From Bacteroidota bacterium (GTDB lineage Bacteria; Bacteroidota; Bacteroidia; 2-12-FULL-35-15): 64,000 bases of DNA. The stretch is taken from NCBI GenBank assembly GCA_947504725.1, contig CANNHN010000006.1:62001-126000 (forward strand). The letters run 5' to 3'. Positions 14,224 to 21,942 of this stretch are shown in pieces. Positions within the stretch are counted from its first letter, which is position 1, and each line of letters begins with the position of its first letter. Below the pieces are notes generated by a model. It was given only the letters and a program-made list of their open reading frames with translations. It ran no database searches and was not told the DNA's origin. The position numbers and the translations under genes were made by a program.

Positions 14224-16116
14224 TTATTGTTTTACTTTAATAAATTTTGCTGTTGAGACTTTATTTTCTGTACTCAACTGAATAAAATACACACCACTTT
14301 CTAACCTTGAAATATCAATGTAATCAGCATCCATTCTTTCGCTGATAATTGTTTTACCTAACAAATCAATGATCGAAAAAGTGATTTTATTTGAATCTGA
14401 ATTATTATTAATGTACAAGCGATCATTGGCAGGATTCGGAAAAACACTTAGTTCATTTTTGTCATTTTCGGAATCAGTAATGCCGGTAATAAATTCAGAA
14501 GCAGAACCAAAAACAGGATGTAACATGAGGGAACCAACAAAAGGTGATGTATTCCAACTACCTGTTACGTTATAGAATATTTTATTTTGTGAATTTGTGT
14601 TTTTATCTACACCGATATATAAAAACTGGCTAGTATTTTGTGTAAATCCTACATAAAATGTTACTCCAGCACCCAAATACAATGGTGCGTCTAATTTGTA
14701 TCTGATAAATTGATTGTGTTTTACTTGGCTATAATCGGGAGTTTCTGCATTTGCTCCTGTATATAATATCGGACCAGGTGAGCCTCCTCCATCTCCCCAC
14801 ACTTGTAAATTAAAAGAATAAATAGAAGCATTCACTACGAAAGGATTAAAATAAATATCAATGTATTGCAGTGAGTCGCCAACATTTAAAGTGAATTTTT
14901 CGGCAAGTTGTGAATTCAATACACTTAATCCAAATGAGTTTTCAGCAGTTCCATCATCATATGCAAAATGGTTATAAAAGTTTTGTTCAACAACCATCGT
15001 ATCATTCTGAGGATTAATACCACTTGTGCCAATAAACTGTTTAATTGTATATCTCCATGGCGCAGTAAATAGAGGTGCAAACACGGCAGTGTCAATTCTA
15101 ATCCTTCTTAAACAGGATACTCCAAAATCGCAAGCGGTATACGTATTTGTGTTTCCATATGGATATAATCCTATAGAAGAAGCTGCCGTAAATGTTGACA
15201 AAACACTTGGAATAATATCATCTGTTATAACATGTCCATAAGAAACAGTTGTTGCTGGTGAAAAAACAGTGTAATTATAGCGTAGTAAATTTTCAACAGA
15301 ATCTCTTAGCTCCGATTTTTTATATTGCCTCCAAGGCATTTCTCTGTAATTTTTTAGAAGAGGAGCACCATTGTATACATACGAAACATCATTATAAACT
15401 GTATCATCAAAACTCCTGTTATCATTCAAATACACATAATCAATATTCCAATGATCTGTATTTCCACTAATCGTTGCTCTATTAAAAAATCGAAATTGAA
15501 AATCGTCTTTTAAATAGGCTGTATCCGTAATTGGAATCATTACTAAAGTCCACGAGCTATCGTTCGTTGCCAATGTAGTTCCTTTTATTGCTTTAATATT
15601 TCTCCATCCCGAAACAGAATGTTTAAATTGAAGAACCAATGAATCCATTGTTTCGGGGCCATTTCCATTTCCTTGAGGTTGATAATAAAAACTCAAATAA
15701 ACAGAATCTGTAAGTGTTCCACCTAAATTAATTGGCTTAGATGTAAGATAATCTGCAATAGCAGAAGTACTTGGTCCAGCAGTAAAATCGTAAGGATAAC
15801 CTGTTTCATCCAATCCTTCAAATGTTGCAACACCAAGCGTAATTGGAGATTTGGCAAACGTACGATTGATGTATACCTTATTATCTAGCCACAGATTTGT
15901 GTCTGGGTAATAACTTGAAGCAGAAAAATCATCTAAAAATCCATCAGTACCTAAGTTAATTGTATCAAAAATAAAAGGCGTCCTTAGTTTTCCTTTTAAT
16001 TCATTGTACTTTTTAATAAGAGTAGCATTTGTTGTTAATTCATACTCAACCAAACCTTGAGAAAAGCTAAAATTGGTGAGAATCAAAAAAACTAATAAAA
16101 TTCTTATTTTATTCAT
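14224..16116 (-). CDS. Secreted protein with type IX secretion C-terminal sorting domain
   Basis: Exported cargo protein of about 630 residues. The ATG at 16116 gives the best signal peptide (MNKIRILLVFLILTNFSFSQ) and an 8-base overlap with the upstream PASTA gene; ATGs at 16131 and 16128 are also possible. The body has two jelly-roll-like beta-rich regions (a DSLVLQFKHS segment, and DDGTAENSFGL to VTFYVGFTQN). The C-terminus is a T9SS type A sorting domain (FPNPANDRLYI ... IDLLGKTI ... LESGVYFIQL ... KFIKVKQ), which directs passage through the outer membrane and attachment or release. No catalytic motif is seen. It proves that the organism uses T9SS. Confidence 0.88.
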   Translation of the reverse strand: MNKIRILLVFLILTNFSFSQGLVEYELTTNATLIKKYNELKGKLRTPFIFDTINLGTDGFLDDFSASSYYPDTNLWLDNKVYINRTFAKSPITLGVATFEGLDETGYPYDFTAGPSTSAIADYLTSKPINLGGTLTDSVYLSFYYQPQGNGNGPETMDSLVLQFKHSVSGWRNIKAIKGTTLATNDSSWTLVMIPITDTAYLKDDFQFRFFNRATISGNTDHWNIDYVYLNDNRSFDDTVYNDVSYVYNGAPLLKNYREMPWRQYKKSELRDSVENLLRYNYTVFSPATTVSYGHVITDDIIPSVLSTFTAASSIGLYPYGNTNTYTACDFGVSCLRRIRIDTAVFAPLFTAPWRYTIKQFIGTSGINPQNDTMVVEQNFYNHFAYDDGTAENSFGLSVLNSQLAEKFTLNVGDSLQYIDIYFNPFVVNASIYSFNLQVWGDGGGSPGPILYTGANAETPDYSQVKHNQFIRYKLDAPLYLGAGVTFYVGFTQNTSQFLYIGVDKNTNSQNKIFYNVTGSWNTSPFVGSLMLHPVFGSASEFITGITDSENDKNELSVFPNPANDRLYINNNSDSNKITFSIIDLLGKTIISERMDADYIDISRLESGVYFIQLSTENKVSTAKFIKVKQ

Positions 16117-16939
16117 CGAAATTTTCATCATCGTTTTTTACACTTGAAGTATCGGGCATTGAAGAAAGTTTAACTTTATCAGTTGTAAAATATAAATCAA
16201 TTGTACCACCCATATTAATCATTGATTCTTTTCCACAAGAAGGAATTTGGCGATACACTCTGCCACTTAAAGAATCTTTAGGTATATCAAAAACGACAGA
16301 ACCAACACTCAGAGAACATTCTGTTAATCTAGCGAGTGCCTCTTTTCTTGATAAACCATATAAACAAGGAACGCCCACTTCTTCATCGCTTAATCCTTTT
16401 CCTACAATTAATTGAATAACGGTTCCCTTTTCAATTAAATCACCAGGAGCAATTTTTTTCCCTTTCACCATTTGCTCCAAAACGCAATTTGCACATTGAT
16501 CAGGAACAAATTTGATTGCACCCATTTTCAATCCAAACGTTGTAATCATAGCCGCTGCTTGTCGCAACGATCGGTCAACTAATTTAGGCATTTGAATTGT
16601 AGGTGGCAAAATAGAAGTCACATATAAATAAATGGTTCTTCCTTCTTTTACTTCTGCATTGGCTTCTGGCTCTTGCTTAACAACTACTCCTTTTTTTGCT
16701 TTTGTATCGTAAATAGAGTCAATTACTAAGTATTTTAAGTTTTTATCTGCTACAAATTTGTCCAGTTCTTTCAGTCCTAACCCAGAAAAATCAGGAACAA
16801 CTATTACTTCTCCATGATTTGTTGTGGATTTCAACCAAGAAAAAACGAGCCACATAATCAATGTAAATGACACAATATAAATGGCCAAATGTTTGAGGAA
16901 TGTTTTACTCTTGATAAATTGAAATAAGCCTTTGAACAT
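16109..16939 (-). CDS. PASTA-domain membrane protein
   Basis: A 276-residue protein from the ATG at 16939; an in-frame TTG 4 codons earlier is less likely. It has one transmembrane segment (about 16-36) followed by three PASTA domains (about 44-110, 113-182 and 185-250), a fold that binds peptidoglycan stem peptides or beta-lactam-like ligands in serine/threonine kinases and PBP2x. There is no kinase or transpeptidase domain, so it is a stand-alone PASTA protein facing the periplasm. Its gene overlaps the T9SS cargo gene and lies near the Ddl gene. This proximity to D-Ala-D-Ala synthesis fits a sensing or scaffold role in wall growth, but that is inference. Confidence 0.85.
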   Translation of the reverse strand: MFKGLFQFIKSKTFLKHLAIYIVSFTLIMWLVFSWLKSTTNHGEVIVVPDFSGLGLKELDKFVADKNLKYLVIDSIYDTKAKKGVVVKQEPEANAEVKEGRTIYLYVTSILPPTIQMPKLVDRSLRQAAAMITTFGLKMGAIKFVPDQCANCVLEQMVKGKKIAPGDLIEKGTVIQLIVGKGLSDEEVGVPCLYGLSRKEALARLTECSLSVGSVVFDIPKDSLSGRVYRQIPSCGKESMINMGGTIDLYFTTDKVKLSSMPDTSSVKNDDENFDE

Positions 16940-17107
16940 ATATGTTTGCAAACGAAATTAGACTACGAATGTACGAATTTTAGAGAAACGAAAGAAAGGT
17001 TCAGAAATTGCATCTTTTAGGGTGAAAAGTAATATTTATTCAGCACAGGAAACCCCTTCAACCTCTTGTCGTCTTGGGGTTTTTCATTTTATACTACTAT
17101 CCCAAAT

Positions 17108-17137: not shown

Positions 17138-17449
17138 CTACAAGGCATTACTGGAATGAGAATCATTTCTACAAACGGAAAGTTGCTTCAATCTATCCCA
17201 ATTAGAATCAATCAAAGCTTGTTTCTTCTTTTTGCTCCATCCTTTCAGTTTATTTTCAAAACTAATTGCAGATAAAGGGTCATTAAATAATTCATAGAAT
17301 ACGATTTCTAATGGTCTTCTAGAAAAAGTATAACAACTCCTTATAACACCTTGGGTATGTTGCTCAAATCTCATCTCTAAATCATTTGTTACACCAACAT
17401 AAAATGAGTCATCAGAACATCTTAAGATATAAACATACATTGTCTTCAT
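17138..17449 (-). CDS. Small GIY-YIG nuclease (YhbQ/UPF0213-like)
   Basis: A 103-residue single-domain GIY-YIG protein: the motif reads YVYILRC...FYVGVT (about 5-20), with the conserved Arg in MRFEQH and Glu in the later FENKLKGWSKKKK stretch (about 64-77). Family members are small structure-selective or non-specific DNA nucleases, and many stay uncharacterised. The ATG at 17449 is followed three codons later by an alternative ATG. The gene is inserted between the PASTA gene and ddl and is enclosed by an inverted pair of a dispersed repeat found elsewhere in the window. This suggests that gene plus repeats form a unit, perhaps analogous to REP-associated tyrosine transposase arrangements. Confidence 0.9.
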   Translation of the reverse strand: MKTMYVYILRCSDDSFYVGVTNDLEMRFEQHTQGVIRSCYTFSRRPLEIVFYELFNDPLSAISFENKLKGWSKKKKQALIDSNWDRLKQLSVCRNDSHSSNAL

Positions 17450-17531: not shown

Positions 17532-20240
17532 TTAAGACTTAACGAGTAATTTTCGTTTTTGAAACGCAAAATCCAGGATACGGTCAATAAAATCGTAAGG
17601 TTTATAGCCATTGATGGCTGTCTGGTGGAAAATACAAGTTGCAGGAGTCATTCCAGGCAAGGAATTCACTTCAACAAATACAACCTCTACTCTATTTACA
17701 TCGTAAATTCTGACAAAAGCATCAATACGAGTATAACCATTGATGTTTAATAATTTTGCAGCGCCACCCAACGTTTGTTTTACCTGATCAGAAATTTTCT
17801 GACGCTCAGCATTATCTTTTGAATAACGAGCTGGAGTAATGTTCTGACCTTGTCCCGCTAAAAATTTTTCTTCTAACGATAAAACTTCTCCTTCACTCAA
17901 TGCTTCTGATGCTTCAAAAACTTCGTATTCAACCGTCCCATTTGATGCATATTTCGTTAACATTCCACCTGTTACTTCCAAAAAGTGATTTGCATCTCTT
18001 TTCGAAATCAATTCTTCAACTAGGATTACTGGCTTTTGAGGAAACTCTTCTTTGTCTTTGATGTGTAATACTTTTGCTGCCGCTTCGTCCAAAGCTTCTT
18101 GTTTACGGAAGATTAATTTTGCGAATGCTTCAAATTCTTCTGCTGTTTTTATTTTTTTGACAGCTGAAGAACAACCATCATCAACAGGCTTTGCAATAAA
18201 TGGATAATGGATTTTATCCTTTATAGTCGTTAATATTTTGGTATGATCAGCATTCCAATCTGCTTCGGTTACTAACAAATGTTCGGCAACCAAGAATCCA
18301 TTTTGTTTTAGAATTTCGTTGGTACGGTATTTATCAATTGTGATTTGTGAACTCTCTACTCCAGAACCATTGTATGGCAAACCGACTCTTTCCAAATTCA
18401 CTTGCACTGCTCCATCTTCACCTGGACGACCATGCAACGCAATAAAAACACAATCCACCATTTTCGCTAAATCATCGTAAGTAATACGTGTTGGTTTCGC
18501 TAAATTATCGATGTTCGAATACTTCGTTGTGATTTCTGAACTTTCAGAAATAATTTGTTTTACTAATTCGTGAATTTTATAATTATCGATTTTGTCTTTA
18601 ATATCATCCGCATTATCCTTCAACAAAATATTGACTGGAATCTGATACATAATGTGCTCATCATTGCTTCCAGTTAGGAAAACAGGAATAGGCTCATACT
18701 TTGCAGAGGATGCTAGTTTCTCATAAATATTTCTTCCGCTCTCAACGGAAATATGTCGCTCTGAAGAATACCCTCCAAGAATCACAGCTACTTTTGTTTT
18801 TTGAGTTGTAGAATTCTGATCTTCTAAAATGGAGACATCTAACTTCTTTAATAATCCATCAAACAATCCGCTATTCTTTGTGGCAATAACTCTTTGAGCC
18901 AATGATGTTCTAATAATGTAGGTTAAAAATTGTGAAGGATTTAAACCAATTTCAGCTGCTTGATGGAAGAAAAAAGAGGATGGCATCATTCCAGAAGTAG
19001 TATTAGGGTCGTTCAAAAAGATTTTCCCTTCTTTTGAAATAAATCCATCGATACGGGCATATACATCAAATTTTAACTCATAAAACAAACGTTCACATTC
19101 TTTTCGAATGGCTTGAATTTGTTCATTCGGAATATCAATAGGTGTAATTTTACGTGATAAGCCTGGTAAATATTTTGAACGGTAATCAAATAGCTCTTTT
19201 CCTTTTCTGATTTCCGTTGGTGGCAATGCGATTGCTTTTCCTTGCTCATCTTGTGCTACAATACATGAGAATTCTTTTCCTTCAATAAAACCTTCAATTA
19301 GCACTTTGTTTTCGCCATCAAGTGATTCTAATACTGCACCTTCTTTTTCTTTTTCAAAAAGTGTATCCAAATAATTTTTCAAATCCGCAGGATGATAAAC
19401 TGTTTTTTTATCTGGATATGTTGAAGTCCAAACAGACAAAGGCATTCCAATACCTTCACGGATATCAGCAATTGCACGTAGTGAACTAAATTTTTCTTCG
19501 TCAGATAGTTTTTTCCATTGTCCAGCATCAATCCATTCTGTAAAAAATGCTTTTCCAACGGCTCCCATTAAAGCATAATTTTCGTCATCATGCAAAATAC
19601 TTATACCGATAGATGAGCCTTGATTTGCTGGTTTTACAACTAAAGGAAATCCAAGTTCTTCTTTTACTTTACGTAATACTTCTGTGCAGTTACCACTAAT
19701 AAATTCTTCTCTATCAATGGTAAAAAATTTCGGACTATTAAATCCTGCATTTACCATCAATCGTTTTTGAACGCTTTTATCTATACCGATAGCCGAAGGC
19801 AAAATTCCGGAGCCTGAGTATGGAATTCCAAGGTATTCAAACAAGCCTTGAATTTTTCCGTCTTCTCCAAATGGTCCGTGTAAACATAAAAAAGCAAAAT
19901 CGAATTGTGACTTTAATTCATTCGGTTCAAGTTTCTTTCCTATTTTATTAATGAGTTCTAATTGCTGAGCGGAAGACAATGCTCCAATTTGTTCAGCATA
20001 AATTTGAAAGTCGCCATCCTTTGTAGGAATAAATTCTGCGGGTGGATAAAAATCGCGGACACTTCCTTTGTAAACAAATTCCCAATTGAGTAAAACAAAA
20101 TTTCCGAAGCTGTCGACAAAAACGGGAACGGCTTCAAATAAAGATTTATTGAGATTATCGTAAACAGTTCTTCCTCCAGCAAATGAGATTTCACGCTCTT
20201 TAGAAAAACCGCCAAAAATGATTCCGATTTTAATTTTCAT
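17532..20240 (-). CDS. Tandem (two-module) D-alanine--D-alanine ligase
   Basis: About 902 residues from the ATG at 20240 (GTG two codons earlier is possible), more than twice the usual 300-370 of Ddl. Module 1 (about 5-465) has the N-terminal IGIIFGGFSKEREIS, LHGPFGEDG, the ATP-grasp VVKPANQGSSIG, a roughly 70-residue insertion (about 235-305) and the metal-binding end NDPNTTSGM, where canonical Ddl has E-V-N-T-x-P-G-M. Module 2 (about 485-904) has VAVILGGYSSERHIS, LHGRPGEDG, AKPVDDGCSS and the canonical VEVNSLPGMT. Both halves therefore keep ATP-grasp features. It should make D-Ala-D-Ala or a related depsipeptide for peptidoglycan. Whether both modules are active is unknown. Confidence 0.9.
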   Translation of the reverse strand: MKIKIGIIFGGFSKEREISFAGGRTVYDNLNKSLFEAVPVFVDSFGNFVLLNWEFVYKGSVRDFYPPAEFIPTKDGDFQIYAEQIGALSSAQQLELINKIGKKLEPNELKSQFDFAFLCLHGPFGEDGKIQGLFEYLGIPYSGSGILPSAIGIDKSVQKRLMVNAGFNSPKFFTIDREEFISGNCTEVLRKVKEELGFPLVVKPANQGSSIGISILHDDENYALMGAVGKAFFTEWIDAGQWKKLSDEEKFSSLRAIADIREGIGMPLSVWTSTYPDKKTVYHPADLKNYLDTLFEKEKEGAVLESLDGENKVLIEGFIEGKEFSCIVAQDEQGKAIALPPTEIRKGKELFDYRSKYLPGLSRKITPIDIPNEQIQAIRKECERLFYELKFDVYARIDGFISKEGKIFLNDPNTTSGMMPSSFFFHQAAEIGLNPSQFLTYIIRTSLAQRVIATKNSGLFDGLLKKLDVSILEDQNSTTQKTKVAVILGGYSSERHISVESGRNIYEKLASSAKYEPIPVFLTGSNDEHIMYQIPVNILLKDNADDIKDKIDNYKIHELVKQIISESSEITTKYSNIDNLAKPTRITYDDLAKMVDCVFIALHGRPGEDGAVQVNLERVGLPYNGSGVESSQITIDKYRTNEILKQNGFLVAEHLLVTEADWNADHTKILTTIKDKIHYPFIAKPVDDGCSSAVKKIKTAEEFEAFAKLIFRKQEALDEAAAKVLHIKDKEEFPQKPVILVEELISKRDANHFLEVTGGMLTKYASNGTVEYEVFEASEALSEGEVLSLEEKFLAGQGQNITPARYSKDNAERQKISDQVKQTLGGAAKLLNINGYTRIDAFVRIYDVNRVEVVFVEVNSLPGMTPATCIFHQTAINGYKPYDFIDRILDFAFQKRKLLVKS

Positions 20241-20272: not shown

Positions 20273-20851
20273 TTAAGCAAGTGTCTTCAAGTATTCAACT
20301 AGTTTATTAACAGCTATAGCACGATGACTGATTCTGTTCTTTTCCGAAAGGTCCATTTCTGCAAAAGACTTACTGCTTCCATCAGGCAAAAAGATCGGAT
20401 CATATCCAAATCCGCTATTCCCCCGCTTTTCGGTCAGAATTGTTCCATCGACTATTCCTTCAAATTGCAACTCTTTCCCATTGATTACCAATGAAATAAC
20501 TGTTTTAAAACGTGCTTTTCGATTGCTCATTCCTTTCATTTCCAAAAGAACCTTATCCATGTTATCGTTGGCATTTTTAGCCTCACCAGCATAGCGAGCA
20601 GAAAGCACACCCGGCTGACCATCCAGTGCTTCTACCTCCAAGCCTGTATCATCGGCAAAACAATTTTGACTGTACTTCTCATATACATAAAAAGCCTTTT
20701 GTGAAGCATTTCCTTCAATTGTAGCTTGAGTTTCAGGAATTTCTTCCTGACAGTGAATGTCGTTGAGACTCAAAATTTCAATCGAATTCGGGATTAACAA
20801 CTGAATTTCCTTTGCTTTATTTTGATTGGCTGTTGCGAAGACGAGTTTCAT
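20273..20851 (-). CDS. rdgB: RdgB/HAM1 non-canonical purine NTP pyrophosphatase
   Basis: Hydrolyses dITP, XTP and similar nucleotides to monophosphates, keeping deaminated purines out of DNA and RNA. Of 192 residues from the ATG at 20851, which shares one base with the preceding stop (TAATG); an ATG three codons earlier is possible. Family motifs are all present: FATANQNKAKEI near the N-terminus, FADDTGLEVEALDGQPGVLSARY in the middle, and FGYDPIF then SHRAIA near the end. It is the penultimate gene of the long minus-strand operon and functionally unrelated to the sugar genes. Confidence 0.95.
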   Translation of the reverse strand: MKLVFATANQNKAKEIQLLIPNSIEILSLNDIHCQEEIPETQATIEGNASQKAFYVYEKYSQNCFADDTGLEVEALDGQPGVLSARYAGEAKNANDNMDKVLLEMKGMSNRKARFKTVISLVINGKELQFEGIVDGTILTEKRGNSGFGYDPIFLPDGSSKSFAEMDLSEKNRISHRAIAVNKLVEYLKTLA

Positions 20852-21942
20852 TAATTGCATTCTAATAATTGATTGAATACATCTAAATATTTTTGTTTAT
20901 TGGCTTCAACAGAATATTTTTCTTCTATTGTTTTTCTTCCGGCTTTTCCGATTTTTTCGCGAAGTTCTTTTGATTCAATTAATGCTGATAATTTTTTTAC
21001 CCAATCTGTTTGTGAATCGGCCAAATAACCATTCTCCCCATCTTGAATAATTCTAAAATTAGCACCAATGGCACTTGATATTGTTGGAATGCCAATTGCC
21101 ATGTATTGAATTGCTTTCAATCCGCTTTTACCATACACCCATTCTTCGTTAGGCAAAGGATAGAGGCCTATATCAAATTTTTGAATGGTTGGGATTTCAA
21201 TTTTCTCACTCCATTCATACGCCTCAACACTGATGTTTTCTATGAAAAAATCTTTATCGCCCATTACAACGAGTTTAAATTTGTATTTTTTAGAAAGTTC
21301 TACAAAAACATCAGTAAGTAAATAAAGATATTTTGAAGTACTATGACTTCCGCTCCATCCTAAAATAATTTCAGATTTGTTTTTGTAATCCAAAATTGGA
21401 AAATATCGTTCAGTTGTATTAACTGTACTAGAAATATCTGTTGCGTTTGAATTATACTTCCTTACAAATTCATCTAATTTAGGTGTACATGTAATTACAT
21501 GATTTGCATTTTTCATCAAATAAATCATTTTTTTCTTGCCTTTTAAAGGCTCCCATAATTTATTTGCATCACTCGAATGACCTAAAAAAATCATGTCATC
21601 AATATCATAAATTAATTTCTTAGAAAGTTTCGAAACCATCCACTCAAAAATCGGAAGCCCGATTGGAGTTACCCATAAATGAACGTATACAATATCATAT
21701 TTATGAATACTAAATAAAATTAAAAATCTATTTATATATCCTAAAAGTGTATAGTACAACTTTTGGATTATATAATTGGGCTTGTAAAGAATACTCCATA
21801 AATTTAAGTCTACAAAAGCTTTTGTGGTAAGTTCAAAGCCTGCTTGTTCAAAGCATTCAAAATATTGCTCGTATTTAAGGCGTTGACTCGGAGCCTTATT
21901 TTCAGGGTAAGGAGAGAGAAAAAGTATTTTTCTAGAGGGCAT
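20851..21942 (-). CDS. Glycosyltransferase, GT4-like
   Basis: A 363-residue cytoplasmic or membrane-associated retaining glycosyltransferase of the GT-B fold. The N-terminal domain begins KILFLSPYPENKAPSQRLKYEQYF; the C-terminal nucleotide-sugar domain contains ILGWSGSHSTSKYL, the Gly-rich loop, and the GT4 signature region YGKSGLKAIQYMAIGIPTISS. It would add one sugar of the surface polysaccharide; donor and acceptor are unknown. Its start shares a base with the stop of the upstream GT gene (TAATG), as does its stop with rdgB. Confidence 0.85.
   Translation of the reverse strand: MPSRKILFLSPYPENKAPSQRLKYEQYFECFEQAGFELTTKAFVDLNLWSILYKPNYIIQKLYYTLLGYINRFLILFSIHKYDIVYVHLWVTPIGLPIFEWMVSKLSKKLIYDIDDMIFLGHSSDANKLWEPLKGKKKMIYLMKNANHVITCTPKLDEFVRKYNSNATDISSTVNTTERYFPILDYKNKSEIILGWSGSHSTSKYLYLLTDVFVELSKKYKFKLVVMGDKDFFIENISVEAYEWSEKIEIPTIQKFDIGLYPLPNEEWVYGKSGLKAIQYMAIGIPTISSAIGANFRIIQDGENGYLADSQTDWVKKLSALIESKELREKIGKAGRKTIEEKYSVEANKQKYLDVFNQLLECN

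Follow-up and report, generated by a model that had tools for sequence, protein, structure and literature searches.

The only D-Ala-D-Ala ligase (Ddl) of the Bacteroidota genome studied here is encoded by a gene of double length, in which two complete Ddl modules follow each other head to tail in one frame. This double-length Ddl is real and ancient. On balance, we favour the reading that it is a housekeeping Ddl derived from one duplication and fusion, of which the first module (half 1) would be a canonical ligase and the second (half 2) a working ligase with a modified acceptor pocket. Ddl ranks among the textbook examples of essential enzymes and is targeted by an antibiotic, D-cycloserine. 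No description of a double Ddl was found in the literature searched, with most subscription journals lying outside the search; the sequence databases almost certainly list the double form under the name Ddl.

The Fused Gene and Its Locus

The gene lies in a window of 64,000 nucleotides (the whole stretch of DNA that was analysed) and occupies positions 17532-20240 on the minus strand as a single open frame of 902 amino acids, while the plus strand contains many stops. A sequence-only reading had placed two complete-looking Ddl modules in one frame at exactly these coordinates, and the Pfam search bears this out: there are two matches to Dala_Dala_lig_N and three stretches that match Dala_Dala_lig_C (E 1e-50 to 1e-58), with Dala_Dala_lig domain matches in both halves. 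Its domains mark the protein as a Ddl, as do the site residues of half 1.

Half 1 (residues 1-450; 18891-20240, minus strand, as are all features below) is a complete module with the canonical triad E15/S209/Y357, corresponding to E15/S150/Y216 of E. coli DdlB. It carries a conserved insertion of about 70 residues (about residues 233-303; 19332-19544), inside which W242, D259 and P267 are invariant. As a result, the interval between the equivalents of S150 and E180 has a median of 100 residues in half 1, about 70 more than in E. coli DdlA and DdlB (30) or in single Ddls (30-33); half 2 has a smaller insertion of +22. The omega loop of half 1 (residues 348-362; 19155-19199) holds K356 and Y357, and the motif NDPNTTSGM (18987-19013) has Asp at the Mg2+ ligand E270 and keeps N272. 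A linker helix between the modules (residues 461-480; 18801-18860) was seen in the AlphaFold2 model. Half 2 (residues 481-902; 17535-18800) is likewise a complete Ddl module by domains and alignment, with an altered second-substrate pocket. The codon of Cys690 (18171-18173) stands at the position of DdlB Ser150. The second omega loop (residues 782-798; 17847-17897) contains K792 and Phe793 (codon 17862-17864), the latter equivalent to DdlB Tyr216, and the motif VEVNSLPGM (17649-17675) supplies the Mg2+ ligands E857 and N859 and is followed by T868, which corresponds to Ser281. Both motifs and the insertion in half 1 had been noticed from the letters, and all were found.

A Ham1-family gene (20273-20860) lies just upstream, probably in the same operon according to the neighbour scan. 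A gene for a PASTA-domain protein (16109-16951; PF03793) is a frequent neighbour of fused or single ddl in Bacteroidia, and fused genes are repeatedly found in the gene order Ham1, ddl, PASTA, T9SS protein, RluD. The sequence-only reading had remarked on the PASTA protein, which is real. As a clue to the fusion it had to be rejected, since single Ddls can also adjoin it, for example in a family with both forms (f51); from this shared neighbourhood it follows that the fusion sits at the ordinary ddl place. In that family, one genome (G307) has a single Ddl at the PASTA locus (L160:4202-5197) where other members (L152, L153) have the fused gene, which suggests replacement in place. Two minor observations concern the same region. 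A gene of 103 amino acids with a GIY-YIG nuclease domain (17138-17449, minus strand) lies between ddl and the PASTA gene, and was matched at two of 67 comparable fused loci. The listed frames of the T9SS-sorted protein (14224-16131) and the PASTA protein, both on the minus strand, share 23 bases, and their start codons are unsettled.

The genome itself is 3.4 Mb in size and 99.6% complete, and the fused gene is its only Ddl. The remaining hits to PF07478 come from unrelated ATP-grasp proteins; the four examined were, on reading of their sequences, two biotin carboxylases, a PurT-like protein and a PylC-like ATP-grasp protein beside a NeuB-like gene. Most fused genomes, too, gave one match only, to the fused Ddl. 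MurF is present both on its own and fused to alanine racemase (MurF-Alr; L226:1411-3894), and therefore the wall dipeptide is needed; since the fused protein is the only Ddl of a genome with MurF, it would serve as the D-Ala-D-Ala ligase.

Active-Site Residues of the Two Halves

The residues were compared using the numbering of E. coli DdlB. In half 1, E15, H63, K97, K144, S150, E180, K215, Y216, R255, D257, N272, G276 and S281 are kept, and E270 is replaced by Asp, a conservative change at a Mg2+ ligand. In half 2, the residues for ATP, Mg2+ and the first substrate are all kept, and the changes are S150C, Y216F and S281T. The sequence-only reading had supposed a fusion with one changed half. 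Changed residues do exist; the altered half is half 2, and half 1 keeps its triad. Half 1 as the altered half was rejected by this table, as NDPNTTSGM represents only the Glu-to-Asp exchange.

The pattern is stable among 115 distinct fused proteins. Both halves keep E15, K144, E180, K215, R255, D257 and N272, apart from a gap at N272 in a single half-2 row, and K97 and E187 are likewise kept in 27 diverse fused proteins aligned to DdlB. At positions 150/216/281, half 1 has S/Y/S and half 2 has C/F/T, with a single deviating row at 281. The half-1 triad is canonical in all 115 and in all 27 of the DdlB alignment, and the half-2 triad is Glu/Cys/Phe in all 115, Cys690 being invariant. Every single Ddl compared (n = 33; 19 from Bacteroidia and 14 from other classes) has S/Y/S. 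The mean pairwise identity is 0.629 for half 2 against 0.613 for half 1, which indicates equally strong conservation.

The substituted positions are known to matter. Ddls that make D-Ala-D-Ala only conserve Ser150 and Tyr216, and an E. coli DdlB given the Ala and Phe of Leuconostoc LmDdl2 at 150 and 216 gains a weak D-Ala-D-Lac activity (PMC7691350). In lactic acid bacteria, F or Y at the site equivalent to 216 decides between depsipeptide and dipeptide activity (PMC5996685). Phe (or His) at position 216 is the mark used for D-Ala-D-Lac and Van-type ligases, and half 2 has it in the invariant Phe793. A profile of half 2 scored the E. coli Y216F mutant (1IOW) at 132.0 bits compared with 129.9 for the wild type, with Phe aligned to Phe.

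Profile Scores and Predicted Structure

Both halves, when searched separately, have Ddl domains by Pfam. The whole fused protein scored 381 bits against the family model TIGR01205, above its cut-off of 245.65, and each half alone stayed below it (228.8 for half 1 and 159.2 for half 2). Against Van-type models half 2 remained far below the cut-offs, with 100.2 bits for NF000206 (D_ala_D_lac; cut-off 550) and 77.8 for VanA (cut-off 775). Half 2 was therefore classed neither as a D-Ala-D-Ala ligase nor as Van-type, since its triad departs from the canonical one and the cut-offs of the Van-type models are not reached.

The full chain was modelled with AlphaFold2 from 59 sequences (the window protein and relatives), which gave a mean pLDDT of 85.8 and a pTM of 0.87. 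Values of pLDDT below 50 were confined to the two omega loops, namely residues 348-362 and short runs within 782-798. The best Foldseek matches in the PDB were chains of Ddl, VanA/VanG and LmDdl2, each aligned over approximately one module. Dimers recur among Ddls, with elongated C-terminal helices that touch the partner subunit (PMC6899670). An intramolecular pseudo-dimer, as proposed in the sequence-only reading, is plausible on this model, because the pTM is 0.87 and the modules are two separate genes in some relatives.

Distribution and Origin

The distribution was determined in 296 Bacteroidia genomes from 72 families, all with a completeness of at least 90%, in which the classes were assigned by match length and E-value. 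The fused ddl was found in 128 of them (about 43%). It is the exclusive form in 34 families; 35 have single Ddls or none, two are mixed (f42 and f51) and one has a truncated form (f66). An extension beyond the class was considered and rejected, as a sample of 148 genomes from the phylum contained the fusion in only two (G000 and G079), both members of this class. All genomes of the same genus that were searched have the double form, either intact or interrupted by contig ends. The sequence-only reading had foreseen that close relatives might all share the double architecture, one half being already characterised; the former was found, and a search of the literature returned no characterised half. 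A fused Ddl in another genome (G192; L155:4613-7615) has 1001 amino acids and is thus about 100 residues longer than the others.

Among named genomes, at least 574 stretches encode relatives; 80 of these were kept, including isolates of Pontibacter and Rhodocytophaga, and almost all of the 80 are near full length. The double form also occurs in genomes with few contigs. That the double gene is an artefact of assembly or annotation is extremely improbable in view of these more than 570 stretches, and nothing in support of it was found. An assembly-induced fusion, against which the sequence-only reading had cautioned, was excluded, as the fused form is present in many independent genomes.

In an IQ-TREE phylogeny of 91 modules, the halves fall into two clades, each with 100/100 support, one consisting of half 2 and the other of half 1 together with the truncated forms. 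The two halves are split from all single Ddls with a support of 98/96, a split with long stems for which long-branch attraction is possible. We infer from the tree, which fits such a history, that copies of ddl arose by one duplication and were fused head to tail.

Truncation, Fission and a Genome in Which Only Half 2 Was Detected

In one family (f66), all 41 sampled genomes (30 genera) have half 1 but lack the ATP-grasp core of half 2, of which no more than a piece of the N-domain remains behind half 1. Longer remnants of half 2 were found in f97 and f99, with a decayed N-domain after half 1, so that the catalytic core of half 2 has been lost in three families. The truncated forms are one clade beside half 1 of Pontibacter, Rhodocytophaga and f110. 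A TIGR01205 search of one genome with a truncated Ddl (G272) found no further full Ddl. Another such genome (G235) also has a divergent gene for a Ddl-like ATP-grasp protein of 310 amino acids (L177:1553-2485).

In f110, the modules are separate genes in three genomes of 1.0-1.2 Mb: G495 (L231 and L232), G484 (L233 and L234) and G517 (L235 and L236). In G495, which is a single contig, the two genes are far apart. The half-2 gene of these genomes still adjoins PASTA, and its product keeps Cys/Phe/Thr, with PGM changed to PAM or PAL. The separate half 1 has lost His63, an otherwise invariant residue, in two of the three proteins (L231 and L233), where Tyr or Asn is found; this is possibly the start of decay. 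In a further f110 genome (G537; 0.7 Mb, 96% complete), the only Ddl detected is of the half-2 type (L237:3249-4505). It has Ser again at the position of S150, and Phe and Thr remain. A tblastn search for half 1 over the approximately 703 kb of this 96% complete genome matched only the half-2 gene itself, and the same kind of search detected MurA, MurC, MurD, MurE, MurF, MraY, MurG, FtsI, FtsA, FtsZ and an alanine racemase-like stretch. As 4% of this genome is missing, a half 1 may have escaped detection. From the truncated and split forms and the genome with only a half-2-type Ddl, each half is apparently able to stand alone: half 1 can suffice by itself, and half 2 can be retained alone.

Possible Roles of the Second Half

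In the favoured scheme, ddl would have been duplicated once and the copies fused head to tail, as the tree implies. The modules would pack as a covalent pseudo-heterodimer in place of the usual Ddl homodimer, joined by the helix of residues 461-480. Half 1 is very probably a canonical D-Ala-D-Ala ligase, and half 2 is probably an ATP-dependent ligase in which S150C, Y216F and S281T have altered the second-substrate pocket. Since this pocket is modified and the other catalytic residues are kept, half 2 would either make the same dipeptide less strictly or join D-Ala to a different acceptor. Some lineages can dispense with its activity, as the three families without its core demonstrate, and the return from Cys to Ser in G537 could mean that the Cys form does not suffice as a D-Ala-D-Ala ligase.

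A possible, if rather unlikely, alternative is that half 2 acts as a regulatory or structural partner, to which ATP and D-Ala would bind without a product being formed and whose effect would be to tune or stabilise half 1. The altered triad (S150C and Y216F) would agree with this, and the persistence of an N-domain remnant in f66, f97 and f99, where the catalytic core is deleted, suggests a structural role. Against it, the residues for ATP, Mg2+ and the transition state are kept across the 115 proteins, the two halves are equally well conserved, and half 2 is retained as a gene of its own in 1-Mb genomes and as the only Ddl found in G537. In another reading, which is quite unlikely, D-Ala-D-Ala is the product of either half, half 2 has changed by neutral drift or for kinetic tuning, and the fused chain does no more than take the place of the homodimer. 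In its favour, each half is the only Ddl found in some lineage, and no special MurF accompanies the fusion. Against it, the acceptor pocket has three linked changes that persist throughout the fused clade, all 33 singles being S/Y/S, and Ser returns where half 2 stands alone.

A more specific version of the favoured ligase, in which half 2 makes D-Ala-D-Lac or another D-Ala-D-X beside D-Ala-D-Ala so that the enzyme is bifunctional, appears unlikely. A Van-type cluster was rejected, as neither VanH nor VanX was found among the ten window neighbours scanned; elsewhere in the genome, an M15 peptidase scored below the VanX cut-off and the best 2-hydroxyacid dehydrogenase below that of VanH. The idea that half 2 has a MurF of its own for its product was also rejected: two strong MurF matches, one in a frame of about 800 amino acids, recur in nearly all Bacteroidia sampled, in genomes with double, single and truncated Ddls alike. 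In the genome studied here, the second of these is the MurF-Alr fusion. The lack of linked VanH/VanX and of a dedicated MurF argues mildly against a dedicated D-Ala-D-Lac pathway. If half 2 did make D-Ala-D-X, a large part of the Bacteroidia would have an unrecognised mixed pool of peptidoglycan precursors. The double Ddl would offer a test of whether Gram-negative walls contain D-Ala-D-X termini.

Comparison with Known Systems

The fused protein shares with ordinary Ddls (TIGR01205; E. coli DdlA and DdlB) the N-domain and ATP-grasp fold, the catalytic residues in both modules, the full triad in half 1 and the genomic place beside a PASTA gene. It differs from them in having two modules per chain, the insertion of about 70 residues in half 1 and the three substitutions in half 2, and in that each half alone scores under the family cut-off. 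Half 2 resembles the D-Ala-D-Lac ligase of Leuconostoc (LmDdl2; PDB 1EHI) and the F-type Ddl of lactobacilli in having Phe at 216 and a residue other than Ser at 150. However, the latter is Cys rather than Ala, the D_ala_D_lac model gives 100 bits where 550 are required, half 2 is no close relative of these enzymes and its host is Gram-negative.

The large subunit of carbamoyl-phosphate synthetase is likewise an ATP-grasp protein with an internal duplication, and its two halves have different tasks. It belongs to another family and catalyses another reaction, and a channelled series of reactions like its own is not known for the double Ddl. An asymmetric, duplicated housekeeping Ddl, of which nature provides truncated and split forms and reciprocal losses of either module, would be a convenient evolutionary system in which to ask what a second active site contributes to a dimeric ligase. 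Other wall-precursor enzymes are also joined in one chain, as in MurC-Ddl (PRK14573) and MurF-Alr (PRK11930); those fusions combine different enzymes, whereas the double Ddl combines a ligase with its own duplicate.
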